DNA of 63,512 bases from a virus, in the IMG/VR virus record IMGVR_UViG_3300042453_001695, positions 1 through 63,512 of that record, one strand, 5' to 3'. This document shows positions 2,821 through 20,634 of this stretch, one piece after another. The notes under the pieces were generated by a model that saw only the letters and a list, made by a program, of their open reading frames with translations, did not search any database and was not told the origin of the DNA. Within the stretch, counting starts at the first letter, position 1. Each line of letters begins with the position of its first letter. A program made the translations under genes and the position numbers.

Positions 2821-3007
2821 CAACATCCAAGTAATTTTCTTTTACTTGCCAGTCAATGCCATTAACGCCTTGTAGAACAGTCCGTGATCTAATATCTTTA
2901 TTTGGACTGTTCAATTCAAAAACAGAAGTAATTGCATCTACGTTGATAGCAATTGAATCACCATCAAATGTAGGTTCTGCATTGGTAAAATAAATGAACT
3001 TACTCAT
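2798..3007 (-). CDS. Hypothetical 69-aa protein between gp45 and gp44
   Basis: The 69-residue product contains INVDAITSVFEL and the ending VKENYLDVVARLNAD. It looks like a compact alpha/beta protein without membrane segments. It overlaps the end of gp45 by 4 bases (ATGA), so it is translationally coupled to the sliding clamp. T4 has no equivalent at this site. I do not recognise the family. The layout strand-turn-strand (AITSVFEL, SRTVLQG, WQVKENY) resembles small phage proteins of unknown role. Confidence 0.7.
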   Translation of the reverse strand: MSKFIYFTNAEPTFDGDSIAINVDAITSVFELNSPNKDIRSRTVLQGVNGIDWQVKENYLDVVARLNAD

Positions 3008-3690
3008 ACTGAACCTTTCTCATATTTTGAACCAGTTTCCGTTGCAATCCAATATTGCAAGTTTAGGTCTTTATGTTTAAAGTTTGAAATACCCTGTGAA
3101 GAAACTTTTACCTCATATGAACCAGATATCATCTTCAAGTTTTCGACTTTAAAAATCATCGTATACTTGTCACCATTACCCTCAGCAATTTCAAGTGAGT
3201 CTGTGTGTGCTGCATCATTCGTCATATCAAGTGCATTGATGAATACTTTGTTTCCATCGGATTCAATCGCAACATACGTCGAAGACAATACATTTGCTGC
3301 ACTCATAATCCAATCGAAGTCTGCTTGATTAAGCACAAGATTTATCTCAGATTCTGGCATGGCAATAGGCTTGTCTGATGCGGCAACAATCAAGTTAGGC
3401 GAACAGAAGCGATATCTAATTTTGCTGCGACCTTTTAAACCAAAAATCAAAACATCATTATTGTCAAACTCAATCACAGGTTCATCTTTGTGTAGAGTTA
3501 GTACAGATAAAAAGTTGTTAAGATCGTATACACCAAACTCTGCTGGAATTTCTTCAGAGATGACCGCTTCAGCCATTACATTCTTTCGTGAAGAAACGGT
3601 ACGAAGTGTTTTACCTTTTCTAAAAAGAATACCTTGATTGATTGTCGCAAAGTTTTTAAGAATGTTAATTGTATCACCAGAAAGTTTCAT
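3004..3690 (-). CDS. 45: gp45, DNA polymerase sliding clamp
   Basis: The 228 residues equal T4 gp45 in length. The N-terminus MKLSGDTINILKNFATINQG matches the T4 pattern MKLSxDTxxLLKNFATINxG, and the AVYDLNNFLSVL-like stretch follows. The family forms a ring-shaped homotrimer that tethers polymerase gp43 to DNA and, together with gp55 and gp33, activates late transcription. A gp55 gene is present in this window (14370-14912), so both functions are likely. The gene overlaps the next small gene by 4 bases and follows the DUF3310-like gene closely. Confidence 0.96.
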   Translation of the reverse strand: MKLSGDTINILKNFATINQGILFRKGKTLRTVSSRKNVMAEAVISEEIPAEFGVYDLNNFLSVLTLHKDEPVIEFDNNDVLIFGLKGRSKIRYRFCSPNLIVAASDKPIAMPESEINLVLNQADFDWIMSAANVLSSTYVAIESDGNKVFINALDMTNDAAHTDSLEIAEGNGDKYTMIFKVENLKMISGSYEVKVSSQGISNFKHKDLNLQYWIATETGSKYEKGSV

Positions 3691-3693
3691 AAT

Positions 3694-3963
3694 TTATTTC
3701 CTTGTCAAATCATGATTGTGTAAAGCCATTATAGCATAATGAACGACTTTCATCAAGTCATCACGATTATAGCCGTTCTTTTTGCCGTAACGCTGTGCAT
3801 ACTTCATAATATTTCCAATACAAAATCCTTCACCATGACCGCTGTCCATGATAAATTCTGATGCTTGAAATTTGTTTTGTGAGTAATGTTGTCCGTATGT
3901 CTTATTAACATACTCTTGTATTTCTTTAAGAATACGGTCTTCACTATACTTGTAATTGATCAC
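3694..3963 (-). CDS. DUF3310-like small protein
   Basis: The 89-residue product has the C-terminal block IGNIMKYAQRYGKKNGYNRD followed by LMKVVHYAIMALHNHD. This resembles the helical DUF3310 domain, in which (N)xxKYxxRxxxKxxxxxDLxKaxxY is typical. DUF3310 proteins are common in phages, sometimes fused to nucleotide kinases, and their biochemical role is not settled. The gene overlaps the upstream glycosyltransferase gene by 4 bases and sits just before gp45, so it belongs to the replication transcript. Confidence 0.65.
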   Translation of the reverse strand: MINYKYSEDRILKEIQEYVNKTYGQHYSQNKFQASEFIMDSGHGEGFCIGNIMKYAQRYGKKNGYNRDDLMKVVHYAIMALHNHDLTRK

Positions 3964-4775
3964 AAGCGTCCCGTATACTGAGCAACTGCTGGCATGTTAC
4001 CAGTAAATGCATATGTACCAATGTGTTGAGTACGCATCCATGGACACAACCAAACTTGTCCACCAAGTTTACGCCACATCTGACAGAACATATAATCTTC
4101 TGATAGATAACGATCAGAACCACCACCAGTATAACTATTGACAGTATCAATTACCGTATCAAAGTATGCATGAATATATCGTGATCCATCAAAATGTTCT
4201 TGACCAACATGGTCTGGTTTGTAACGAATTTGTGGAAATGCTTCTGCCATTTTATCAAATACATGGCGTTTGATCATCATGTGACCTGTACCAATTTCCA
4301 TAACTTGAAGTGGTTCAGATACTTGAAACTGTTCTGTCCCTTTTACCACATTGAAGACATATTCTCCAACTAGATTCTCAAGTTCTCTTGGATTTAAATC
4401 AGGATTACGTCTTGCTGTGTCAGCAATGTTACCCCAATTAATTGATTTTTTAGGATAAGGTCCACCAATTACATCTTTGTCTAGTGCCATCAATGCTACG
4501 ATGTCATTCGGATCGAAGTGAATATCAGAATCGATGAACATCAAGTGTGTGTAGTCTGTGCGTAGAAATTCATCTACGAGGTAATTTCTTGCTCTTGTGA
4601 TTAGAGATTCGTTAAAGAGGAAGGAAAACTTGACTTCAATGCCATATTTGATCATCACGGTCTGTAGATCAAGACACGATTTCATATAGAGTCCGTGATT
4701 CATACCACCATACATTGGTGTAGCCACGAACAATTTGTTTTTTCTTAACTCTTCAAGATTGACTTGTATCTGCAT
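3960..4775 (-). CDS. GT-A-fold glycosyltransferase
   Basis: The 271-residue protein opens with a strand and loop KLFVATPMYGGMNHGLYM. A DxD-type metal/nucleotide-sugar motif follows in THLMFIDSDIHFDP at about residues 76-89, and GGPYPKK after that. These are features of inverting GT-A glycosyltransferases. A His/Trp-rich C-terminus (CPWMRTQHIGTYAFTG) is typical of a relative found in many T4-like marine phages. Donor and acceptor are unknown. It could act on phage DNA, virion proteins or host surface glycans. The gene is preceded by a strong terminator and starts the segment leading into the replisome operon. Confidence 0.8.
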   Translation of the reverse strand: MQIQVNLEELRKNKLFVATPMYGGMNHGLYMKSCLDLQTVMIKYGIEVKFSFLFNESLITRARNYLVDEFLRTDYTHLMFIDSDIHFDPNDIVALMALDKDVIGGPYPKKSINWGNIADTARRNPDLNPRELENLVGEYVFNVVKGTEQFQVSEPLQVMEIGTGHMMIKRHVFDKMAEAFPQIRYKPDHVGQEHFDGSRYIHAYFDTVIDTVNSYTGGGSDRYLSEDYMFCQMWRKLGGQVWLCPWMRTQHIGTYAFTGNMPAVAQYTGRL

Positions 4776-8926: not shown

Positions 8927-8936
8927 AGACTGTCAA
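8908..8936 (-). promoter_or_regulatory. Second, upstream sigma70 promoter before the VWA gene
   Basis: Minus-strand TTGACA (8936-8931), a 17-base spacer and TATCAT (8913-8908) give a perfect -35 and a five-of-six -10. The -35 overlaps the stop codon of the TAGT glycosyltransferase gene. With the promoter at 8820-8848 it makes a tandem pair. Transcripts from here carry about 110 bases of leader, including the possible short ORF. Confidence 0.6.
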
Positions 8937-9829
8937 GCTTTAAAATTTGTTACTAATTTCATACCATAGTTGTTGACATCTTTAGTCAAAGTAATATCTT
9001 TTTTGTAACGCAGTTCGTTTTTCTTGAATGGAGAATAGTCAACATAATGATGCCATCGTTTATACTTCCACACCATTCGCGCAACATCAGGATGCATACG
9101 AACCAACATCTCTGATTTGTTTCTTGTACCCTCTGAGTTGATGCCCTCTGTCCAAAAGTTTTTCTCTAGACCTTCTTTGTGATAGAACTCTTCGGTATTA
9201 CCACCCTTGACAGTTTGTGTTGCTGCTTTACCTTGTAGAAATGCATTGAACTGAATTGTACAATCACCATCTTTTAATACACGCAGACAGATATCGGTGT
9301 CTTCATTGTAACGACCACGCCAACGATGTTTGCAATCATTTGAAATGAGTAGTGTGGAATATATTCGCGTGTTCTTTACATACGGTGGATAACTTTGATT
9401 TGGTGCAATGAAGAATCTGTACTGAAAGCCAGAGATTGGCACATTTTCAAATCGATCAATAAAATCTTCTGCCGCTTTGAAAATTACACCAGACTCAACA
9501 CGAATTCGTTCATTCTTGTGAAGACGATAAAAGTCTGCAATATTATCGTCAAGCACCCAATGTTTTTTGGCACCAATGGAAATAGAATGATCCCATGCAA
9601 AGTTTCTTGCACGACCAGGACCATCACCATGATTGCTAAATGGTGCTACGATTAGTGTAACGTAGTCACGAATTTTAAATTTGTCCAACGCTTTCTCATA
9701 AGGCTCTTCATCTTGTGGTTCAATTACTATGTAATGGTGTACTTTCATTCTAGATAATGATTTGGATGTAATCATCGAATCTGAACGACCTTTAGATACA
9801 ATATAAACTGGATGTGTTGGATTAGTCAT
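8933..9829 (-). CDS. TET/JBP-associated-type glycosyltransferase (TAGT), probable DNA-base glycosyltransferase
   Basis: The 298-residue protein matches, from memory of the family, the phage TAGT/GREB1-like glycosyltransferases. It shows YIVSKGRSDSMITSKSLSRM at the N-terminus, then GPGRARNFAWDHS and the acidic nucleotide-sugar motif HWVLDDNIADFYRL. FKAAEDFIDRFENV, WRGRYNEDTDICLRVLKDG, MHPDVARMVWKYKRWHHYVD and a basic C-terminus follow. In the described systems these enzymes are predicted to glycosylate 5-hydroxymethylpyrimidines in phage DNA. The gene overlaps the next glycosyltransferase gene (9826-10671) by 4 bases, in a three-gene unit with a ParB-C-terminal-like protein. The base-hydroxylating or hydroxymethylase gene needed upstream is not in this window. 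Confidence 0.82.
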   Translation of the reverse strand: MTNPTHPVYIVSKGRSDSMITSKSLSRMKVHHYIVIEPQDEEPYEKALDKFKIRDYVTLIVAPFSNHGDGPGRARNFAWDHSISIGAKKHWVLDDNIADFYRLHKNERIRVESGVIFKAAEDFIDRFENVPISGFQYRFFIAPNQSYPPYVKNTRIYSTLLISNDCKHRWRGRYNEDTDICLRVLKDGDCTIQFNAFLQGKAATQTVKGGNTEEFYHKEGLEKNFWTEGINSEGTRNKSEMLVRMHPDVARMVWKYKRWHHYVDYSPFKKNELRYKKDITLTKDVNNYGMKLVTNFKA

Positions 9830-10671
9830 ACAAAAAAATTCTCTAAGCTAGATTGTGTAAATGGTCTATAAACTTTTTTCCAATGTTTCACATTCTTCAT
9901 GATTCCATCTTCTTCAAAAATTGTAATGCCGTCTGGAAATTTCTGTTGAATGTATCGAAGGGCATCGTAGTGTTCTCCTAATTGAAAAACACTTTTAGTT
10001 GATGAATCTTGCATCTCTTCCCAGATAGGTCTTTTGCCTTTCAGTTCTTCTGACGCACTTTTGTTAATGTATAAAAATTCATTTGACATTCTGGTGTTGA
10101 TGCCGTTATACAAACACTCAAACAGAAATAATAAATCTTCCGCAACACGAATAGATGTGTCCATTTTTTCGATTACTTTTGAAAGTTTTTTGCCATCAAA
10201 GAAAAGATAGCCAAACACACCTTTAGTATCAGAATATTCTGTTGCAGCAGGTGGCACCATGCCATCTGATAAACCAACAATTCCTATATCTTCTTCATCT
10301 AACCATGTCGATGCTGATTCAAACAATCTAAGAATCTCTTCTTGGGTTGCTTTTCTTTTTGATTTATCCATATCAGACACATTCGTAAAATATTTACGAT
10401 TTCTTTTGTAAACGATCAAATCATCATCGATCATTGCATACTTAATATTGCCCGCGTGATGATGAATAAATTTTCGTGTTTGAGACAATTGTGTCCATTG
10501 TCCGATAATTTCTTTAGGTAATTCCAAATATTCGCAAGGATACTCGTATTGAGAACGCTCACTTGAGTCGATTACCATCACAACTTTTTGTTGTAATTCT
10601 TTAGGTAAATCTTCAAACGTAAATTGTTTATTCGCACGACGAATCGTTGGAATATAAATGCGTTCGATCAC
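9826..10671 (-). CDS. Second GT-A-like glycosyltransferase of the modification island
   Basis: The 281-residue protein has an N-terminal strand/loop IERIYIPTIRRANKQFTFED, a WTQLSQTRKFIHHHAG helix, an acidic motif in IKYAMIDDDLIVYKRN and a later acidic helix RVAEDLLFLFECLYNG. This order (start loop, DDD motif, ED helix) parallels the TAGT neighbour, but overall similarity is low. It begins with GTG in a GTGA overlap with the stop of the upstream ParB-like gene. It may add a second sugar or act on a different acceptor. The activity is inferred from the motif and from its coupling to the TAGT gene. Confidence 0.62.
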   Translation of the reverse strand: MIERIYIPTIRRANKQFTFEDLPKELQQKVVMVIDSSERSQYEYPCEYLELPKEIIGQWTQLSQTRKFIHHHAGNIKYAMIDDDLIVYKRNRKYFTNVSDMDKSKRKATQEEILRLFESASTWLDEEDIGIVGLSDGMVPPAATEYSDTKGVFGYLFFDGKKLSKVIEKMDTSIRVAEDLLFLFECLYNGINTRMSNEFLYINKSASEELKGKRPIWEEMQDSSTKSVFQLGEHYDALRYIQQKFPDGITIFEEDGIMKNVKHWKKVYRPFTQSSLENFFV

Positions 10672-11024
10672 TCTTCAATCCATCTTTTCAACATGTTCTG
10701 ATCACGTTCAAGTTTTGGATGCCAAATAGACTTTGTTTTCTCACTCAGATTTTGTTCAATGAGTTTCGCAAAATCTTCGTAGTCTTCTTTGTTACGAAAA
10801 TGTACATAGATTGTTTTATATGTTTTCTTATTGTTCTGCTCATACTCTGGCATACCAGTCCAATGTTTTTTCCATTCAACATTGTCAACATCAACACCAC
10901 CTTGATCATCTTCTTCATCACTCTCACCAAAAAAACGATTAAGAGTTGGCGGCTGATACTCATCAGTCAGCAACTCCATGCAGTTTTCATAAGAACTAGA
11001 TTCTTTGACTTGATTATTTTCCAT
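10668..11024 (-). CDS. Stand-alone ParB-C-terminal-like phage protein
   Basis: The 118-residue product has an acidic, disordered N-terminal half and a C-terminal motif: TIYVHFRNKEDYEDFAKLIE followed by KTKSIWHPK. That motif is the region often found at the end of phage ParB-like nuclease or DNA-modification proteins (I-V-F, D-x-x-x-F-A, T-K-S-I-W-Y/H-P). Here it has no catalytic ParB domain, so it may be an accessory DNA-binding subunit for the two glycosyltransferases downstream. I chose ATG at 11024, which has an AGGGG site, over a TTG six codons upstream. The gene overlaps the end of the deformylase gene. Confidence 0.6.
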   Translation of the reverse strand: MENNQVKESSSYENCMELLTDEYQPPTLNRFFGESDEEDDQGGVDVDNVEWKKHWTGMPEYEQNNKKTYKTIYVHFRNKEDYEDFAKLIEQNLSEKTKSIWHPKLERDQNMLKRWIEE

Positions 11025-11589
11025 TCTTTTGACCCCTAACAATCTTCTTTACGATCTTGTTTGCTTTTTGTCTTGCCATTTTCAACGCAAGTGGTTTCAC
11101 TAATTCAGTATACTTGATTCCATTCAAATGATCAAGTTCATGCAAGAAACAACGTGCAGAAATACCTTCAAGTCTTGTTTGATTTACCGTACCATTTTCA
11201 TCGGTAAATTCAACGACAATCCATTCAGGTCGTTCAACATTCAAAAATAGTCCTGGAAAAGAAAGACAGCCTTCTTTTCCTCTTTCATCTGTTCCACGTT
11301 CAAGTACCTTCGGATTAATACAAACTAACTGAAACTCTTCTGTACCCATTACAAATATTCTTTCTGAAATGCCGCATTGATTTGCAGAAAGTCCTAATCC
11401 AGAATACAACTTCATCGTCATCTTCAAACGCTTTGACAACTTGACTAGTGCTGGTGAAGGAAAACCACCAGCGTATTCAGGTATTTTTTGTTTCAACAAT
11501 GGATGATCTTCACCAAAAACTGGCAACGGATCGATGCGATCAACTTGTTGTATGCCAGCAGAGGTGTCAATTGTCAATATTTCACTCAT
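11014..11589 (-). CDS. def: Peptide deformylase
   Basis: The 191-residue protein carries all three deformylase motifs: GLGLSANQCG at residues 64-73, EGCLS at 106-110 and HELDH at 150-154. Cys108, His150 and His154 are the metal ligands and Glu151 the catalytic acid. The enzyme removes the formyl group from N-terminal Met of new proteins. Phage deformylases are frequent in marine T4-like viruses and are thought to speed turnover of particular host or phage proteins. The gene overlaps gp46 by 4 bases and runs into the modification island. Confidence 0.95.
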   Translation of the reverse strand: MSEILTIDTSAGIQQVDRIDPLPVFGEDHPLLKQKIPEYAGGFPSPALVKLSKRLKMTMKLYSGLGLSANQCGISERIFVMGTEEFQLVCINPKVLERGTDERGKEGCLSFPGLFLNVERPEWIVVEFTDENGTVNQTRLEGISARCFLHELDHLNGIKYTELVKPLALKMARQKANKIVKKIVRGQKNGK

Positions 11590-13295
11590 GTCACTATCCT
11601 TGAAAAATTCTTAATCTTATCAAATCTAATTGTGTTTGCAAATTTATCTTGTAGTATATCACCTTTGTGGCTGATAACAAACAGATTTACATCATCAAGC
11701 GCATGAAGAATCTTCATTAACTCTTCCGTACCTGTAATATCCAAAGACGAATCAAACACCTCATCGAGTATTAAAAGATTCGTGTTCGTGGAGTTTTTCA
11801 ATTTAGCTACCGATCTCCATGTCAACATCAATGCCATATCAATACGCTGTTTCTCACCTTCTGAAAAATTGTGATATCCAAAATCATCACGATGTCTAGA
11901 CTTAATTGTTTCTTTAAATGACTCATCAAGATTAAAGTTTACAAAAAAGTCCATACTTGACAAATACTTGTTGATCAACTTATTGATTACAGGCAAATAT
12001 TGTTTGATGATATTTGTTTTTATTCCTGTGTCTTTCAACAAGCTTGCCGCAACATCAAAATATGTTTTTTCATCTAATAGCTGCTTCAAAATATTATGTG
12101 CTTCATCAATTTGTTTTTGTAGAATCTCAAGTTCGTTACCATCTGTATTTTCATATATAGGTTTTTTCAAATCTTGGATTTGTTTTTCTAGCTTTTTTAT
12201 AGCAGATTCTAAACCAGATTTACCTGTTTGTTTTGTGGCTAGTTCAATACGAACTTTTTGTAAAACTTTTTCACTTGCTCTGATTTCATCTAGTATCTTT
12301 TGTTGTGTTTCTATTTTTTCACAGAGTTCAGTTAGACCGCCAGTAAGTTCCTGCTCCTTTGATAAAATTTCCCCAAGTTGTCCCTCTTTAAACTCCAGGG
12401 TAATGGCTTGCCTGCACGTTGGACAATCAGCATTGTGTTCATAGAAATGTTTATCTGATGCCACTTTGGATATCTTGCTTTCAATTTGCGATTCAATCTT
12501 TCTAAGCGCCGCAATCTTCTTCTCATTTTCAGGTGCTTTTGCCACGATGGCATCCAATGTGGCGATTTGTTTGCCCAACAAGTCAATTTCATTAGATAAG
12601 GTGCCAATGGTTTCTCTACTACTTTGAATCTCACTCTCATATTCTTTTACCTTTGCTTCATTATCTTGATTGAGTTTGTCTTGATGTTCCTTCTTCAACT
12701 CATATCGTTGATTGAGTACAACGATTTCGTTTTTTTGTCCAACAATTACGTCTTTGTTGATTGAAAGTCTGTCTTTGACAAGGCTATTCATTGTGGAGAA
12801 GATTTGAATGTCTAACAAATCTTCAATGATTGCTCGACGATCAGCAGCAGATAGCTGCATGAACGGAGTAAAGGATGCTGAACCAAGAATAACAATCTGC
12901 GTGAAAGACTTGTAGTTTAGTTTGAGAATAAACTTCTCTAAGTAGTCTTGGTAATCTCTTACAGCCGCATCTTGGTTCAGCAAAACTGAATCTTGATATA
13001 TCTCAAAGATGTTCGGTTTAATGCCACGAACAATCTTGTATTGTTTGTTGCCAATATCGAATTCAATCTCAACCACACAATCACGATTGTTTATTGAATT
13101 TACGAGATTGGGTTTGTTAATATTGCGAAATGGTTTACCGAACAAAGCAAAACACAATGCGTCTAGCATTGTAGATTTACCAGAACCATTTGTACCTACA
13201 ACTAATGTATTGGCATTACTATTTAATTTTAGTTCTGTAAAATAGTTGCCTGTACTGAGTAAATTTTTCCAACGTAAAGTTTTAAATAATATCAT
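11586..13295 (-). CDS. 46: gp46, SbcC/Rad50-like recombination nuclease subunit
   Basis: The 569-residue protein (T4 gp46 is 560) has Walker A GTNGSGKST at residues 34-42 and a long charged coiled-coil centre broken by a CPTC zinc hook near residue 290. The C-terminal ABC signature FSEGEKQRIDMALML is followed by Walker B NLLILDEVFDSSLD. With gp47 it resects DNA ends for recombination-dependent replication and takes part in host DNA degradation. It overlaps gp47 by 4 bases upstream and the deformylase gene downstream. Confidence 0.97.
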   Translation of the reverse strand: MILFKTLRWKNLLSTGNYFTELKLNSNANTLVVGTNGSGKSTMLDALCFALFGKPFRNINKPNLVNSINNRDCVVEIEFDIGNKQYKIVRGIKPNIFEIYQDSVLLNQDAAVRDYQDYLEKFILKLNYKSFTQIVILGSASFTPFMQLSAADRRAIIEDLLDIQIFSTMNSLVKDRLSINKDVIVGQKNEIVVLNQRYELKKEHQDKLNQDNEAKVKEYESEIQSSRETIGTLSNEIDLLGKQIATLDAIVAKAPENEKKIAALRKIESQIESKISKVASDKHFYEHNADCPTCRQAITLEFKEGQLGEILSKEQELTGGLTELCEKIETQQKILDEIRASEKVLQKVRIELATKQTGKSGLESAIKKLEKQIQDLKKPIYENTDGNELEILQKQIDEAHNILKQLLDEKTYFDVAASLLKDTGIKTNIIKQYLPVINKLINKYLSSMDFFVNFNLDESFKETIKSRHRDDFGYHNFSEGEKQRIDMALMLTWRSVAKLKNSTNTNLLILDEVFDSSLDITGTEELMKILHALDDVNLFVISHKGDILQDKFANTIRFDKIKNFSRIVT

Positions 13296-14368
13296 TCAAT
13301 TTGGGTGTTTAATGCTTCCACATAAAGTTCGCGCATGAGATTTTTCAGTTTATCATTGTCAACATTTAATGTCAAGTTATCAATGTACTTCGATAGTATT
13401 GTTACCGTATCTTCTGCTTGATCTACCAACTCGTCATCCGTAACAATTGGCATGTCGGTAAAGTCTTCTACGATGGAAATATCGGCAGCACCAACCTTGT
13501 ACAAATTATCTATTACCATATCAAACAAGAATGGATTTAATTTATTGATTACAACAACTTTGACATAGCAACCTTCATAGATTGAATAATCCATAAATGA
13601 AGATTTATAACCTTCAGCAAAGTGTTCATGTTCATCATTGTAGTTCAACTTGTAAAACATTCTGTATGGATTTTGAACAAACTCTTGTTCGCGTGTTTGA
13701 GTATCAAAGATAACAAAGCCACGTGGATCATTGTAATCTGCCCATGTCATTTCTGTAGGTGTGCCGACATAGTAAATATGCCCATCATCTGAACGATGAT
13801 GGAAGTGACCAGACAAAACAACATCATACTTGTTAAACATCGCTTTGTCAATACCTTCATGGCAAATTGAGCCACGATCCATTTCAAAACCAGCTATCTC
13901 AAAATGTCCGAAAACAATTTGTGATTTAGAATCTTTTATTTTTTGGTAGATTTCTTCTTGATTGTCATCACATATCCAAGGTACCAAATCGATATCAATG
14001 CCGTCAAACTGCATTGTATTAAAAGTATCCAGTACAGTAATATTATCATAGCCATCTAAAAGTAACTGTGAGGAATTAACTTGTAGGGTGTTTTTGAACG
14101 ATACATCATGGTTACCAAGGAACGTGATGAATGTGATGTTGTTCTCTGCAAGTTTATCAAAGAAATATTTACGAGACAGATAGAGTGAATTGAAGTTAAT
14201 AAACTTACGGCGGTCGAAAAGATCACCAAGTTGTACAACGGTTGTAACATTGTGATCCTTTAGATATGGAAAGAATGTGTTCGTATAGAACTTATCCAAG
14301 TATTTATGAAAATCCAAAGAATCACCTCTCATACCGAAGTGAGTATCACCAAGCACACATATTTTCAT
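13292..14368 (-). CDS. 47: gp47, SbcD/Mre11-like recombination nuclease subunit
   Basis: The 358-residue protein begins KICVLGDTHFGMRGDSLDFH and carries the calcineurin-type metallophosphoesterase motifs in order: GDTH near residue 7, QLGDLFDRR near 46, FLGNHD near 85, and later GHFEIAG and SGHFHHR. These bind two metal ions in the Mre11 family. It works with gp46, whose gene overlaps it by 4 bases. It is slightly longer than T4 gp47 (339), with an acidic C-terminal segment. Confidence 0.97.
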   Translation of the reverse strand: MKICVLGDTHFGMRGDSLDFHKYLDKFYTNTFFPYLKDHNVTTVVQLGDLFDRRKFINFNSLYLSRKYFFDKLAENNITFITFLGNHDVSFKNTLQVNSSQLLLDGYDNITVLDTFNTMQFDGIDIDLVPWICDDNQEEIYQKIKDSKSQIVFGHFEIAGFEMDRGSICHEGIDKAMFNKYDVVLSGHFHHRSDDGHIYYVGTPTEMTWADYNDPRGFVIFDTQTREQEFVQNPYRMFYKLNYNDEHEHFAEGYKSSFMDYSIYEGCYVKVVVINKLNPFLFDMVIDNLYKVGAADISIVEDFTDMPIVTDDELVDQAEDTVTILSKYIDNLTLNVDNDKLKNLMRELYVEALNTQIE

Positions 14369-14369
14369 A

Positions 14370-14912
14370 TTAATCTTCTAAATCTTCGTCAATAAATTGT
14401 TCTAGACCTTCTGCTTTTTTCTTTTTCTTATTCTTTTTATTCTCTTCGAAGTTGTGTATAAACTCTGATATATTATCGTACAACTCAAACTGTTTCATAT
14501 TACCATTTTCATCTTCGAACATCTCACCTTCATCTAATAATCCAAACTGTTGTGTTGCTTTATACTTGACATACAATTGTTTCTTTTCACGCATAATTCT
14601 ACGCAGAAATGCATAGTAAATTATCTGTGTAAAGTAAGCAAATGGATTTTTAGACTTTGCTGGATCAAAGTTACGAAAATACATCAAACAGTTTTCTACA
14701 CCGTCTGATATCATTTCATCACGATATGTGTATGAGATAAAATTTGGCTTACGTGATAGATGTTCTGCAATCTTCAGAAAGCATTCACCAATGTAGTCTG
14801 GTATCTTTGGTTCTTGAGTCTTATCTTCTTTTGCTTTTTCACAATCAGCCCTATACTTGATAAGTGCAGCAAGAAAGTCTGCGTTATTAACGTAATGATT
14901 TGCAGTTGTCAT
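14370..14912 (-). CDS. 55: gp55, late-transcription sigma factor
   Basis: The 180-residue product (T4 gp55 is 185) shows the region-2-like helices ISYTYRDEMISDGVENCLMY and NPFAYFTQIIYYAFLRRIMR, which correspond to the -10 recognition part of this minimal sigma family. The C-terminal DNISEFIHNFEENKKNKKKKK and its acidic tail may contain the clamp-binding end. The factor directs RNA polymerase to TATAAATA-type promoters, and several TAAATA-core sites precede virion genes in this window. The gene lies one base after the epimerase stop and is followed by gp47. Confidence 0.93.
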   Translation of the reverse strand: MTTANHYVNNADFLAALIKYRADCEKAKEDKTQEPKIPDYIGECFLKIAEHLSRKPNFISYTYRDEMISDGVENCLMYFRNFDPAKSKNPFAYFTQIIYYAFLRRIMREKKQLYVKYKATQQFGLLDEGEMFEDENGNMKQFELYDNISEFIHNFEENKKNKKKKKAEGLEQFIDEDLED

Positions 14913-15844
14913 TATACATTACCGTGAATATTATTCTTTAAGTATGTGTATCCTTTGATGAGTTCTTTTACGCCGTCGTCTAGTGTAAAATATGGTACCC
15001 AACCAGTCTTCTCTAATTTTTCATTAGAGACAATGTAATTACGTTGATCAGGATCTTTTTTGATATCACCCTCTACTACTGTAAAATTAGGAATGTGTGT
15101 CTTGATTATATCACAAAGTTCTAATTTAGACAAGTTTGCGGACGAAAGACCTACGTTATAAATGTTACCTTTCATTTCATCGAATTGATAAATTGCATGT
15201 AAAAACGCTTCACAAACATCGCGTACATGAATGTAATTTCGTTTAAAATGTCCTTCAAAGATAACGACATATCCATCATTGACTGCACGATATGTCAAAT
15301 CATTTACTAACAAATCTGTACGCATACGTGGTGACATGCCAAACACGGTAGCAAGACGATAGCTAATTGCGTTTTCATGTTCCATTAAACGCTGTTCTAC
15401 TGCCACTTTATCTACAGCATATTTCGACATCGGTCGTAATGGAGACTCTTCTGTACAGAAATTATTTTCGTCCCCTGTGCCATATGCGGAGTTAGTTGTT
15501 GGCATAATGATACGCTGGTCTTTTGATAAGCTGTTCAATAACCAAAACATCGCATCTTTATTTGTCGTGTCAGCACCAACAATGTCTTTATTACACAAAG
15601 GCGCACCAACAAGTGCCGCAAGAGGTATAACTACATCTGCATCTTTGAGTAGAGGTGTCATATGATTTGGATTGCGAATGTCGCCATTCACAATAGAAAA
15701 TCTTTTGTTTTCACAAAGATGATTTAATCCTGTTTGTCTATACATGAAGTTGTCAATCACAGTTATTTCGTGATTCATCTGCAACAAATACTCAGTCAAA
15801 ATGCAGCCAATATAGCCAGCACCACCAGTCACTAATATTTTCAT
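14912..15844 (-). CDS. NAD-dependent sugar epimerase/dehydratase
   Basis: This 310-residue extended short-chain dehydrogenase has the Rossmann motif GGAGYIG at residues 7-13, an Asp (VIDNF) after strand 2, NSAYG with the catalytic-side Ser near 120, and YAVDK near residue 140 as the Tyr-Lys pair. These match UDP-glucose 4-epimerase or nucleotide-sugar 4,6-dehydratase relatives. It is the last gene of the sugar cassette and directly abuts gp55. It probably oxidises, reduces or epimerises C4 of a nucleotide sugar. The exact substrate cannot be read from the sequence. Confidence 0.85.
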   Translation of the reverse strand: MKILVTGGAGYIGCILTEYLLQMNHEITVIDNFMYRQTGLNHLCENKRFSIVNGDIRNPNHMTPLLKDADVVIPLAALVGAPLCNKDIVGADTTNKDAMFWLLNSLSKDQRIIMPTTNSAYGTGDENNFCTEESPLRPMSKYAVDKVAVEQRLMEHENAISYRLATVFGMSPRMRTDLLVNDLTYRAVNDGYVVIFEGHFKRNYIHVRDVCEAFLHAIYQFDEMKGNIYNVGLSSANLSKLELCDIIKTHIPNFTVVEGDIKKDPDQRNYIVSNEKLEKTGWVPYFTLDDGVKELIKGYTYLKNNIHGNV

Positions 15845-15845
15845 A

Positions 15846-17027
15846 TTACACCCTATTCAATATATTTGTTATTTCATCAATTGCCATTTTCTTCAAAGTT
15901 GGATAGTTACCAATGTAGAATGAATAAAAATGCATGTGTTCAGTATTTAAAAACTTTTTGTAGTAATCTTGAGGCACAATTCCCTTCAGATAAGGCTGTC
16001 TTAATTGATTACCACCACCTGCTGAACCGCGACGGAATTCTATTCCCTCATCGCGCATCTTGCCCATTAGTCTATCCACGAATTCTTTATTTGCATACTC
16101 TGGCTGCAACACAATGTTGAATGCATAATTGCTGCATCCAATCAATCTAAAATCAACCTTATATTTTTTCTGATCTAATTTAGATAAGAAGTAAAACAGA
16201 TTTTCATTTCTTATTTTAACATTTTCATCCAAATGTTTCAACTGATTTTGACCAAGTATACCACCAATTTCATTGTTACGCATATTGTACGCTGGGTATG
16301 CAAAAATAAAATCTGGATTCAACTCTGGATTTTCTGCTTTGTATTTTTCAGACATTATCCAATCACCACACTCACGAACCATACCGTGTGAACGAAGCAT
16401 TCGAACTGTATGATATACTTCAGGATCATCTGTACATACCATACCACCTTCAATGGTAGACATGTGATGTGCAAAGTAGAAAGAGAAGTTAGACATCCAA
16501 CCATAACTACCTAACAATTTGCCATTGTGTGTTGCACCATGTGACTCACACACATCTTCAATTAAAGGTATATTACGATGACGCAAAACTTCTAATACCC
16601 TATCAGATAGACAATCGAATCCTTGTGCATATGTAACAAAAACTGCGCGTGTTTTATCTGTGATGGCATTCAGTATACCATATTCGCTCATGCCAAGTGT
16701 GTCTAAATCAATATCAACAAACACAGGCGTAAAACCGCATTGAAGGATAGATGCGATATCAGAAACCCATGTAAATGGTGGCACAATCACTTCTCCACCT
16801 TCTGGATGTTTGATCTTCAACATCGTCATTGACAGTAGATTCGCTGATGCTCCTGAGTTGACAAACACGGAATACTTTACACCAAGCCATTTACTCCATG
16901 CTTCTTCAAAAGCACGACATTCTGGTCCGTTTGTAAGTTTAGGATTATCTTTTTTAAGATGTTCTATTACCAAATCTAAATCTTCTCTAGTAATATTGTC
17001 TGACATTAAAGGATACTTCATTTTCAC
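15846..17027 (-). CDS. DegT-fold PLP enzyme with His in place of the PLP lysine, probable ColD/E1-type sugar 3-dehydratase
   Basis: The 393-residue protein has the DegT/DnrJ/EryC1 fold: NSGASANLL, VIVPPFTWVSD, PVFVDID, LIEDVCESHGA. At the site where aminotransferases have the Schiff-base Lys (SFxxxKxxxxGEGG), this protein has FSFYFAHHMSTIEGG. His187 aligns with the Lys. The same change marks ColD and E1 (RfbH), which use PLP to remove the 3-hydroxyl of 4-keto-6-deoxy nucleotide sugars. E1 also has an iron-sulphur cluster with a CxC pair. None is visible here, so a ColD-like enzyme is the better guess. The gene overlaps the GHMP kinase gene by 4 bases. Confidence 0.78.
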   Translation of the reverse strand: MKMKYPLMSDNITREDLDLVIEHLKKDNPKLTNGPECRAFEEAWSKWLGVKYSVFVNSGASANLLSMTMLKIKHPEGGEVIVPPFTWVSDIASILQCGFTPVFVDIDLDTLGMSEYGILNAITDKTRAVFVTYAQGFDCLSDRVLEVLRHRNIPLIEDVCESHGATHNGKLLGSYGWMSNFSFYFAHHMSTIEGGMVCTDDPEVYHTVRMLRSHGMVRECGDWIMSEKYKAENPELNPDFIFAYPAYNMRNNEIGGILGQNQLKHLDENVKIRNENLFYFLSKLDQKKYKVDFRLIGCSNYAFNIVLQPEYANKEFVDRLMGKMRDEGIEFRRGSAGGGNQLRQPYLKGIVPQDYYKKFLNTEHMHFYSFYIGNYPTLKKMAIDEITNILNRV

Positions 17028-18007
17028 TCCATGATAATTTGTGAGCCATTATAATCAAACTTAAATGGCACCCATACATTAATTTCGGGTAATGCTATTT
17101 TAATTTTTTCATGCGTATCTGGTGATGCAATAAACATAAAGAAACCACCACCACCAGCACCCATCAATTTACCACCATACGCGCCAGCGTTTATTGCTTT
17201 GTTGTATATGTTATCTATGTAATCGGATGTTATGTCGTTTGTTAATGATCTTTTGAGAACCCATTGTTCTCTGAGCAAACGACCAATCTCTTTATATGAC
17301 GCTCGGTTCTCAAAAGCAGTCAAAGCAGACTCAGCAATATTGCTTATGCCCTCAAGCAATGCATTGTTTTTTCCTGCTTTGATTTTTTCAACTTGTTGCT
17401 TTGCGTGAATGTCTGATAGTCTATCGATGCCAGAAAATCCTAGCATGATATAACTTTCTAGACCGTCCAAATAACTTTGTGGTACTTTAAGATCACGAAC
17501 AACAATGTCGTTATCGTTCAGTTCGATAACACGAACGCCACCATATGCAGCTATAATCTGATCTTGTACTCCAACAGATTCGCCAATATAGTTTTGTTCT
17601 ATATTGATTGCGTCAACAGCTAATCCATATGGTGTGTATAATTTGTTCTGATAATTTGTGATTGCATGAATTAGTCCAACAGTAAACGAAGAGCTAGATC
17701 CAATACCAGAACGAGCAGGCAAATCACCATCATGAGAAATAGAAATTCCATTTGACACTCCGTAATATTTCAAACACTCTCTTACTGACGGGTGTTCTAT
17801 TTGAGAAACGTCTGATACACTTTCTATTTTAGAGTAAATAACTCTATTTACATAATCGAAGTAAGACGGTAACTTCTTAAAACTTATATAGCAATAATGT
17901 GCCATACCAGCAGAAATTACTTTTGAAGGTTTATTTTTATACCATGCGGGGTAGTCAGTACCACCACCAAACAAGGAAAGACGATATGGTGTTTTAGATA
18001 TAATCAT
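17024..18007 (-). CDS. GHMP-family sugar kinase (heptose-7-phosphate kinase-like)
   Basis: The 327-residue protein starts IISKTPYRLSLFGGGTDYPA, the usual N-terminus of HddA-like D-glycero-D-manno-heptose 7-phosphate kinases. It has the GHMP phosphate loop LPARSGIGSSSSF near residues 95-107 and the C-terminal KLMGAGGGGFFMF motif near 285. In heptose pathways it makes the 1,7-bisphosphate, but related enzymes phosphorylate other sugars. It is coupled by ATGA overlaps to the ThDP-enzyme beta gene upstream and the DegT-fold gene downstream. No heptose adenylyl- or guanylyl-transferase is seen here, so the nucleotide-sugar route is incomplete in the window. Confidence 0.85.
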   Translation of the reverse strand: MIISKTPYRLSLFGGGTDYPAWYKNKPSKVISAGMAHYCYISFKKLPSYFDYVNRVIYSKIESVSDVSQIEHPSVRECLKYYGVSNGISISHDGDLPARSGIGSSSSFTVGLIHAITNYQNKLYTPYGLAVDAINIEQNYIGESVGVQDQIIAAYGGVRVIELNDNDIVVRDLKVPQSYLDGLESYIMLGFSGIDRLSDIHAKQQVEKIKAGKNNALLEGISNIAESALTAFENRASYKEIGRLLREQWVLKRSLTNDITSDYIDNIYNKAINAGAYGGKLMGAGGGGFFMFIASPDTHEKIKIALPEINVWVPFKFDYNGSQIIME

Positions 18008-18534
18008 TTTTCGTTATGATAGTCTCCATATTCTACAAGTATGGTAGCTTTACCATCTCTTCGTTCATATGCTTTTGTATATGCAGGTATAATGTCTTCT
18101 GGTTCCTCTAATCTTATGACTTCGACATTTGAACACATAAGTTTGAATGCGTCCGTGTAATCACCGACATGTTGATGTTGTGGATGTAAGGGTCTTTCGG
18201 ATCCGATGCTTGTGCGAATAATAATTCTTGGCTTATAATCAGACATCATCGTAATCTTATCAACATGATTGACAAGTTGATTCGTTGCACAAATCAAAAA
18301 ATTCCAACGTGGATAGATGCTGACTGGTATGTATCCTGCAAGTGCTAATCCAAGTGTCATGCCCATTTGGGTGTCTTCAAATACAGGCAATTCCAGTAAT
18401 TGTTTCCTAGACACTTCTTGTAGTGAATTTGTCATAGCAGTTCCTGGATATTCTACTGCTTGACCTAAAAAAATCACTTGCGAATCTTTCGCAAGCATGT
18501 TCATTGCTGCTTTCAATTCATCAGAATATTTCAA
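18004..18534 (-). CDS. ThDP-dependent enzyme, pyrimidine-binding (E1-beta-like) half
   Basis: The 176-residue product resembles the Pyr domain of E1-beta/transketolase. FEDTQMGMTLGLALAGYIPV holds the Glu that contacts the ThDP aminopyrimidine. PRIIIRTSIGS and the HPQHQH stretch follow, and LEEPEDIIPAYTKAYERRDG ends the domain. The C-terminal transketolase domain normally present is absent, so this is a minimal subunit. The start is TTG in a TTGA overlap with the alpha-like gene, supported by a GAGGG ribosome site. With the alpha-like partner it should form an alpha2beta2-type carbon-carbon bond enzyme. Its substrate is unknown, but the context suggests sugar chemistry. Confidence 0.78.
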   Translation of the reverse strand: MKYSDELKAAMNMLAKDSQVIFLGQAVEYPGTAMTNSLQEVSRKQLLELPVFEDTQMGMTLGLALAGYIPVSIYPRWNFLICATNQLVNHVDKITMMSDYKPRIIIRTSIGSERPLHPQHQHVGDYTDAFKLMCSNVEVIRLEEPEDIIPAYTKAYERRDGKATILVEYGDYHNEK

Positions 18535-19130
18535 AATTGTACCCTCTTTCCTGCACCCGCATGTGGATATTTTGTTTCATACTCATAATAGTATATGTAC
18601 TCATCATCTAAATGTTTGTACGTTGACTCTTTCATGTTCCATGTTTTCATAGTATCTGTGCAAACAGACTTGCCGTTATCTTCAACTATGAATGTGATCG
18701 GTAATTGATTTGCCATGCTATACTTTAAATTTTCCATAAAGATACCAGATTCAGCAGTCATATCACCAACAAAACAATACACTCTTGAATCAATTCTTTT
18801 TAGTTTTAATGCCATTGAAACACCTACAGCAACAGGTATGTTTCCTCCAACAATCGCTGATGAATAAATGTTGTATTCTGGATAACAAAGAGAAATAGAT
18901 TTGCCTTCTAAAATGTCTTTCTCAAGAACATCTTGCGGTACACCTTTGAGTAAACATTGATAGTGTGAACGCCAAGAACAAAATACCCAATCGTTCTGTC
19001 GCACTCTTCTAAAAAATTTAATCATCTCACTTTCGTTGCCATAGTATAGATGCACAGGCGCACGAATGCGACCATTATTGAAATGGTCTGCCATTTTTTC
19101 TTCGAATTCTCTGAGTTCTTCTTTAGTCAC
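18531..19130 (-). CDS. ThDP-dependent enzyme, pyrophosphate-binding (E1-alpha-like) half
   Basis: The 199-residue product carries the ThDP/Mg motif in CFVGDMTAESGIF (GDM replacing the usual GDG) near residue 122, followed about 25 residues later by FIVEDNGKSV. FCSWRSHYQCLLKGV and VGGNIPVAVGVSMALKLK are also typical of the PP domain of transketolase and 2-oxo acid dehydrogenase E1-alpha. At about 200 residues it is much shorter than E1-alpha (usually over 320). It starts with GTG in an 8-base overlap with the radical SAM gene. The beta-like half is encoded immediately downstream. Confidence 0.78.
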   Translation of the reverse strand: MTKEELREFEEKMADHFNNGRIRAPVHLYYGNESEMIKFFRRVRQNDWVFCSWRSHYQCLLKGVPQDVLEKDILEGKSISLCYPEYNIYSSAIVGGNIPVAVGVSMALKLKRIDSRVYCFVGDMTAESGIFMENLKYSMANQLPITFIVEDNGKSVCTDTMKTWNMKESTYKHLDDEYIYYYEYETKYPHAGAGKRVQF

Positions 19131-20634
19131 CTAGTATTTTCCTTTTCAATTTAATCTTGGACATATCTTCGATGTTCTTTCTAGATTGTAAACCAAATTT
19201 TTTTTCTACCAGATTTAAAAATGGTTTGTGTGTGAAGTATTTGTTCCATGCATCATCACGAAACTTCAATACTTCCGCACCAGTCAAACTCTTGGTGCGT
19301 AATGGCTTACAATCATAGGAAAAGAAAGCAAACTCCTCGAATGTCTGAGGTAATTCCCAGCCATTATCGACTGCTTCTTTGTAAAGTGGACTGCCTGGTA
19401 ATGCCATTGCTGCATAGAAATTTGCATGTTCACAATTCAACTCTAATGCAAGATCAAGTGTCTCTTGCATTGTCTCTTGCGTGTCTTCTGGAAAACCAAA
19501 CATGTAATTTCCAAGAACACTAATATCCGCATCTTTGATATCTTGAACGACTTCACGGATGTCAACTTGTTTGAATCGACCTTTATCAATCTCTAAACGA
19601 ACTTGTGGATTGCCAGCTTCAATGCCTAATGCAAGCCAATTGACGCCAGCTTCTTTAAATAATTCCAATTGATCTTTGCGTACAGAATCAACTCTTGCAT
19701 AAGCCCAAAAGTTAAACTTCATACCGCGATCAACAAGACCTTGTAAAATAGGCACATAATATTTTTTATTCAGAAAAAACATCTCATCAGTTAACCGAAC
19801 TGTGCGTACACCTCTTTCCCACAGATACTCAAACTCTTTGAGCATTAACTCAGGTGACCAGAAACGCATTCCTCGTGAGTCTGATGATACTGTGTCTTTT
19901 GCATAAGATGTGCGATTCACAATATTAATCATACAAAAGTTACAACCAAACGAACATCCTAATGATGTAGAGATTGCTGCAAATGGTGTACGACCTTCAT
20001 CAAGAAAATTTGAATGCCAATAATGTGCGCGATACTTATTGAATCCACCAGGCAGTAAATCCCATGCATAACCAGGCATCACACGATCCATGTCTTCTGT
20101 TTTTACAAGTTCTCCTGGTGCACCTATTGCAGCAAAACCATGTTTCTTATATACAAGACCGCGAACTTTATCTAGATGATCAACATAATTTGTTTGTAAT
20201 AAATCTAGCAGACCATATACACCTTCATTGATGAAAACAAAATCGACATATGATAAACCAATTACTTCATATGGTAATGCAGATGCATGAGAGCCAATGA
20301 ATACAATTTTAATTGATGGTCTTATGAGTTTGAGTTGTCTTGCTAGTCTTGATGCACCAATCATCATTGTGGTGCCTGAGTTTGGATTTTGTCCGTAAAG
20401 AACAAATACTGCTATGTCAGTATCGGTGCCCGAAATTCGATGTGCTGCATGTTCAAGGTCTGGCGATGGATCTGCATCGAAATCAAGAATACAAGGATCA
20501 TATCCTTCTTTACGAACTGCTTGTGCAAGCAGTAACGCCCATGTTGGAGGTTCAATTGCAGAATATTTTTCTGAAAGTTCTTGATACGCCTGTTTCGCGC
20601 TACTCGGTATAACGAATGTCACCACTTTTGACAT
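19123..20634 (-). CDS. B12-binding-domain radical SAM protein
   Basis: The 503-residue protein has an N-terminal cobalamin-binding-like Rossmann domain (about 1-160: AVRKEGYDPCILDFDAD, IKIVFIGSHASALP, VDFVFINEGVYGLLDLL). A radical SAM core follows, with the CxxxCxxC cluster motif in SLGCSFGCNFCMIN near residue 228, and then WLALGIEAGNPQVRLEIDKG and GNYMFGFPEDTQETM. In this class SAM and cobalamin are used for methylation or rearrangement of unreactive carbons. It opens the sugar cassette and is coupled by overlap to the ThDP alpha-like gene. A role in C-methylating or remodelling a nucleotide sugar is possible but unproven. Confidence 0.88.
   Translation of the reverse strand: MSKVVTFVIPSSAKQAYQELSEKYSAIEPPTWALLLAQAVRKEGYDPCILDFDADPSPDLEHAAHRISGTDTDIAVFVLYGQNPNSGTTMMIGASRLARQLKLIRPSIKIVFIGSHASALPYEVIGLSYVDFVFINEGVYGLLDLLQTNYVDHLDKVRGLVYKKHGFAAIGAPGELVKTEDMDRVMPGYAWDLLPGGFNKYRAHYWHSNFLDEGRTPFAAISTSLGCSFGCNFCMINIVNRTSYAKDTVSSDSRGMRFWSPELMLKEFEYLWERGVRTVRLTDEMFFLNKKYYVPILQGLVDRGMKFNFWAYARVDSVRKDQLELFKEAGVNWLALGIEAGNPQVRLEIDKGRFKQVDIREVVQDIKDADISVLGNYMFGFPEDTQETMQETLDLALELNCEHANFYAAMALPGSPLYKEAVDNGWELPQTFEEFAFFSYDCKPLRTKSLTGAEVLKFRDDAWNKYFTHKPFLNLVEKKFGLQSRKNIEDMSKIKLKRKILGD

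Follow-up and report, generated by a model that had tools for sequence, protein, structure and literature searches.

A candidate replication-coupled DNA glycosylation cassette with an exchangeable partner enzyme in T4-like phages

A TAGT-type glycosyltransferase (TAGT1) and a small protein with a ParB-related domain (SD) form a constant pair of genes beside a variable enzyme slot in a marine T4-like phage and its relatives. On balance, we read this arrangement as a replication-coupled cassette for decorating DNA with sugars, consisting of SD, TAGT1 and a slot enzyme that would dock on the sliding clamp. The transferases belong to one family, their genes are coupled to each other, SD is linked to TAGT1, the neighbouring slot varies, and C-terminal tails resembling that of the gp43 DNA polymerase are enriched among the slot enzymes.

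The window, i.e. the whole stretch of DNA analysed here, is a 63.5 kb linear virus record whose gp23 has its best matches in Prochlorococcus and Synechococcus myoviruses (64%). A second contig, G004, is from the same species (99.4-99.6% identity across 20.9 kb) and reaches about 40 kb past window position 1; together the two cover roughly 104 kb, the genome itself being larger. On the minus strand, the gene order is gp55, gp47, gp46, peptide deformylase, SD, TAGT2, TAGT1 and a phrog_459 peptidase-like gene. The gp55-like late sigma factor (14370-14912) was assigned from a weak Sigma70_r2 match, its position adjoining gp47 and its tail, a C-terminal GLEQFIDEDLED that is similar to the known gp55 clamp tail. 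The assignment of SbcD-like gp47 (13292-14368) is based on a Metallophos match and its operon position, that of SbcC-like gp46 (11586-13295) on phrog_77, and that of the deformylase (11014-11589), the conserved upstream neighbour of the cassette, on PF01327. The deformylase gene and SD overlap by 11 bp, and overlaps of 4 bp join SD to TAGT2 and TAGT2 to TAGT1. A first-pass annotation of this DNA had described three coupled genes, and indeed all three open reading frames are present, on the minus strand and overlapping. Among relatives, the commonest order is gp47-gp46-def-SD-TAGT1. The predicted docking partner, the gp45 sliding clamp (3004-3690, minus strand; phrog_223), is encoded in the same window and is homologous to the solved clamps 1czd and 1b77/1b8h.

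TAGT1 (8933-9829, minus strand; 298 aa) is a GT-A-type glycosyltransferase that matches the TAGT family PF20691 at 155 bits, against a curated Pfam cut-off of 27.5 bits, and phrog_842 with an E-value of 4.8e-48. TAGT2 (9826-10671, minus strand; 281 aa from a GTG start) is a divergent member of the same family with a PF20691 score of 38.6 bits, and it too matches phrog_842, which is described as 'beta-glucosyl-HMC-alpha-glucosyltransferase'. The conserved acidic GT-A motifs of both enzymes are invariant across aligned relatives. In TAGT1 (alignment A2) these are the DDN at 9542-9550, a DxD-like metal/nucleotide-sugar motif, and the NED of RGRYNEDTD at 9299-9307, the predicted catalytic acid region; in TAGT2 they are the DDD of an IDDD motif at 10420-10428 (alignment A3) and an ED. 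The family scores and invariant acidic residues uphold the earlier calls of a TAGT-type glycosyltransferase with VLDDN and RGRYNEDTDICLRVLKDG motifs and of a second, DDD-type transferase, whose IDDD is real and which falls in the same family. A profile-profile comparison of TAGT1 with TAGT2 was weak (probability 3.6%), a search for a solved structure with the TAGT1 profile gave none, and an AlphaFold model of TAGT2 built from seven sequences was poor (pLDDT 45). TAGT1 is 50-57% identical to proteins of Aeh1, PTm1, Kuja and POP12 and has relatives in at least 592 IMG/VR stretches. Relatives of TAGT2 (54-78% identical) are found in metagenomic phage contigs, and a tblastn search of 50,697 phage records returned no match to this protein. 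The earlier suggestion that two transferases would produce a disaccharide or attach two alternative sugars is reasonable.

SD is encoded at 10668-11024 on the minus strand (118 aa from the ATG at 11024, or 124 aa, 10668-11042, from an alternative TTG start at 11042) and was defined by its fusion to or proximity with TAGT1 and by its occurrence elsewhere as the C-terminal domain of ParB-like proteins. Its KTKSIWHP signature (10716-10739) is conserved among 38 diverse homologues, with the core conserved in alignment A4. The protein has no significant match in Pfam or PHROG, a profile search found ParB_N absent from the window SD, and an AlphaFold model from 38 sequences was poor (pLDDT 61, pTM 0.28). 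The resemblance of SD to ParB-like proteins is confined to their C-terminal part. TAGT1 is also present in 42 bacterial contigs, and in about 19 of these (counted by eye) a ParB-like protein with the SD C-terminus lies immediately upstream of it; the first-pass remark that KTKSIWHP is a ParB-C-terminal-like motif was therefore correct. Pfam searches with four of the bacterial ParB-SD proteins gave ParB_N at 40.3 bits in one, at 23.6 bits (cut-off 26.3) in another and not at all in two. Among phages, tblastn located SD fused in frame to TAGT or just upstream of it in Aeh1, PTm1, POP12, Kuja, phage 65 and others, and 372 IMG/VR stretches encode SD relatives. Of 104 distinct TAGT1 loci whose neighbours are informative, 100 have SD next to TAGT1 or fused with it, a count that partly reflects retrieval, since about half of the loci were found using SD as the query; examples of fusions are L014, L185 and G019. 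A limited literature search found nothing on SD or ParB linked to glycosyltransferases. In Vibrio phage henriette 12B8 (L006:7588-8813), SD and TAGT1 occupy two overlapping frames that are unannotated in the record, possibly owing to a frameshift or sequencing error. Separately, in the isolate Marivivens donghaensis KCTC 42776, a TAGT2-like (575 aa) and SD-TAGT1-like (451 aa) pair lies beside recombinase-like genes on a contig of 339 kb (L239:2749-5834).

When neighbouring genes are clustered, the frame gp47-gp46-def-SD-[X]-TAGT1-[X]-peptidase stays the same, with SD and TAGT1 as the constant pair and slot X as the variable part. The slot is occupied by a class-I methyltransferase (27 loci), TAGT2 (14), a GT-B enzyme (6), an FkbM methyltransferase (5) or GT27 (4), the latter being a provisional name for an unclassified family without a Pfam match, and it is empty at nearly half of the loci. 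TAGT2 is the occupant in the window, and at L014 it is located downstream rather than upstream of an SD-TAGT1 fusion. A dCMP-deaminase-like gene lies between the deformylase and SD in many of 29 retrieved copies (for example L206:17986-18426), and the window species has a homologue of this gene near gp43.

TAGT2 ends in QSSLENFFV (9829-9855, minus strand), a hydrophobic SL-type motif at the C-terminus after a variable linker, which we predict to be a gp45-binding tail from its match to a strict motif and its likeness to gp43. The gp43 polymerase of the same species, read from G004, ends in QSTLESFFS, and all five gp43 tails examined conform to [SN][LI]xxFF. In the T4 record, gp43 ends in SLDFLFG and gp55 in SLDFLYEAND, and T4 gp43, gp55 and gp33 bind the sliding clamp through C-terminal motifs that can replace one another (PMC2988020). 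The strict C-terminal motif is present in 17 of the 19 distinct TAGT2 tails, in 11 of 22 from methyltransferases and in 3 of 6 from GT-Bs vs. 13 of 656 background tails, i.e. C-termini encoded by the remaining neighbours (Fisher p = 5e-32, for a motif defined after the first examples had been seen and with related sequences within families not being independent). The background matches include gp43, a PF01555 DNA methylase and an HNH-type protein. The motif is absent from half of the methyltransferase and GT-B tails, from FkbM and GT27 tails and from nearly all TAGT1 tails. SD has an internal motif in its N-terminal region, TLNRFF in the window (10929-10946, minus strand), that occurs in 28 of 52 representatives vs. 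1.3 expected by shuffling, a level reached in 0 of 2000 shuffles; given this enrichment we predict that it, too, binds the clamp. Judged by their sequences, SLExFF-type tails probably bind gp45. Clamp-like tails (NPLSDFFD/NPLKEFLD) are also encoded by the DNA methylase genes L165:759-1847 (tested as PF01555) and L163:1399-2547, each upstream of TAGT1 in its contig.

The first-pass annotation had proposed that the sugars are attached to bases hydroxymethylated by TET/JBP-type oxygenases or related pathways. This part is not borne out, as searches for a TET-like dioxygenase, cytosine methylase or hydroxymethylase gene found none either in the roughly 104 kb covered for this species or in 12 relatives represented by long contigs (80-161 kb) with TAGT1. 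PF00303 (thymidylate-synthase-type, gp42) was missing from the window, G004 and all 12 relatives in a search that detected T4 gp42 at 58 bits as a positive control. PF00145 (C5-cytosine methylase) was missing from the same set with working controls, and PF12851 (TET/JBP) even at E<=10, in this case in a search without a TET-positive control. A hydroxymethylated, sugar-modified pyrimidine is thus an assumption, because no such genes were found and because Aeh1 and phage 65, which both carry TAGT1, reportedly lack genes 42 and 56 (Petrov et al., PMC2993671). A dCMP hydroxymethylase or TET-like enzyme could be encoded in the uncovered part of the genome, perhaps a third or more of the total, with the two TAGTs making mono- and di-glycosyl-hydroxymethyl-pyrimidine as in T6. 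T6 ggt is after all a family member that adjoins gp42, and in PTm1, which carries TAGT1, one gene bears the annotation thymidylate synthase and pyrimidine hydroxymethylase; TAGT1-bearing reference phages are mixed in this respect, several having ordinary thymidylate synthases. We nevertheless consider this route unlikely in view of the negative searches, the reported gene content of Aeh1 and phage 65, and contigs G009-G011, three of the 12, which have every T4 core gene tested (uvsX at just 30% in two of them) as well as NrdA/B and one ThyX. A weak PF00303 match in Aeh1 was dropped as a hydroxymethylase candidate, since it falls inside gp47. It seems still less probable that a hydroxylase outside the known families, such as a non-TET 2OG-Fe(II) oxygenase, makes the acceptor in each lineage. 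Non-TET 2OG oxygenases do occur in some of these phages, if inconsistently: in contig G019, a 2OG-FeII_Oxy_5 gene (PF13759; L221:15349-16056) separates gp47 from gp46 and neighbours TAGT2 and a fused SD-TAGT1 gene, and an Asp/Asn-hydroxylase-like gene adjoins gp43 in the window species. However, PF13759 is absent from G009 and G011 and was rejected as a universal hydroxylase, and the Asp/Asn-hydroxylase-like gene is missing from G009-G011 and G019. Among the genes common to G009-G011, judged without annotation from their sequence starts, no missing hydroxylase stood out and no oxygenase-like gene was evident.

DNA itself is very likely the substrate of the cassette, because T6 ggt is a family member, ParB-like proteins and DNA methylases are neighbours, the genes are part of the gp46/47 replication-recombination operon and the tails resemble clamp-docking peptides. 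We attach little probability to the TAGTs acting instead on surface polysaccharide or phage proteins, fed by a sugar-nucleotide-like cluster at 14912-20634 (minus strand). This cluster, located between gp55 and one small gene preceding UvsW, encodes an epimerase, a DegT aminotransferase, a GHMP kinase, a split E1-type TPP enzyme pair and a B12-binding radical SAM protein. Its presence in the window would fit a glycan or protein target, as would the FkbM methyltransferases and GT-Bs in the slot, both of which are frequent in glycan clusters. However, G009-G011 lack the cluster yet keep SD-TAGT1, for which reason it was also rejected as an obligatory donor supply in general; the cassette is within the gp46/47 operon, the tails of slot enzymes resemble that of the polymerase, and ParB-like proteins are coupled to SD. 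As for the tails, the motif is short, and SLExFF could in principle bring enzymes to another replisome partner in place of gp45, or serve as a shared degradation or assembly tag. This is rather unlikely given that the motif matches the T4 gp43 and gp55 tails, for which clamp binding is established (PMC2988020), and is concentrated in DNA-acting proteins. Two other sets of sugar-related genes were observed. G004 encodes an NTP-transferase, a phosphotransferase-like kinase, a 3-dehydroquinate-synthase-like cyclase, an SDR and a methyltransferase (L031:12981-19371), which may make an unusual cyclitol or sugar. Near gp45, at 3960-4775 (minus strand), lies a gene for a phrog_1574 protein with weak glycosyltransferase (Anp1) similarity; conserved copies are found in G009-G011 as well as in phages of Synechococcus, Sinorhizobium and Caulobacter. 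The membership of this gene in the cassette is not supported: most of the 64 phage records that contain it come from phages of Synechococcus and Sinorhizobium, and neither group appears among the TAGT1 matches.

In the replication-coupled cassette that we favour, SD would recruit TAGT1 to replicating phage DNA, and TAGT1 would place the first sugar on the DNA acceptor. TAGT2, docked on gp45 via QSSLENFFV, would then add a second sugar or elaborate the first, like T6 ggt, and in other phages a methyltransferase or a different glycosyltransferase would fill its slot. For this order of events, with TAGT1 acting first and the slot enzyme second, we see roughly even chances. The most likely benefit of the decoration would be evasion of host nucleases, and it may confer resistance to host restriction, as was suggested earlier. 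No biochemistry was found for any member of this TAGT subfamily, and in a survey of 753 phage genomes, 288 had TAGT genes of unknown function without an alpha- or beta-GT (PMC13216743). Three elements were already known separately, namely TAGTs, disaccharides of the T6 kind and a DNA glucosyltransferase that binds the clamp. What is new is the SD-TAGT1 unit with a tail-bearing partner that can be exchanged, apparently lacking any known acceptor chemistry; a limited literature search found no prior description of such a unit. These links give an orphan TAGT subfamily an obligate partner domain, a second-step slot with swappable occupants and a peptide predicted to dock on the clamp, and they make the question testable with phages that can be cultured. 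Should the acceptor be something other than a hydroxymethyl-pyrimidine, the product would be a new base modification in widespread environmental T4-like phages. More speculatively, clamp-tethered DNA glycosylation might be widespread and modular, with an acceptor from no known TS- or TET-type enzyme representing new base chemistry, and with interchangeable second-step glycosyl- or methyltransferases generating phage-specific decorations.

Several known systems share parts of this arrangement. The ggt of T6/T2 is in the same PF20691 family (T6 35.8, TAGT2 38.6 and TAGT1 155 bits) and has a MIDDD sequence, with DDD and ED motifs similar to those of TAGT2, but shows no significant pairwise BLAST similarity to the window enzymes. 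In T6, gp42 adjoins ggt, whereas in the covered part of the window species' genome no gp42 or alpha-GT was found and SD is the partner. According to the literature, T6 also has an alpha-GT. The product of T6 ggt is reported to be gentiobiosyl-hmC (PMC13216743). For Mosigvirus (RB69/NP), two sequential DNA sugar transferases, accompanied by a phage sugar-nucleotide cluster, have been proposed to arabinosylate 5-hydroxycytosine, the known route to which uses a TS-superfamily enzyme (PMC13390438), whereas none was found in the window species. T4 alpha-glucosyltransferase is a DNA glucosyltransferase that co-purifies with gp45, unlike beta-GT, the dominance of alpha-glucosylation being put down mostly to expression and less to clamp binding (PMC13216743). 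Its gene is beside gene 47, between genes 47 and 55. The enzyme belongs to the GT-B fold family PF11440, which was absent from all 14 virus contigs searched (T4 control, 862 bits), and it has no SLDFLF-type tail and therefore binds gp45 another way. Finally, the Aeh1 protein NP_943971 has no TAGT2 slot partner and no visible TLNRFF-type motif, and its gene is not beside gp46/47. If, as we assume, it corresponds to ORF087c, it is the glucosyl transferase listed as 'presumably modifies DNA, unknown base' (PMC8056088, citing Iyer 2013). Its TAGT1 is 51% identical to that of the window and is joined to an SD domain at the N-terminus in one fused product of 399 residues.
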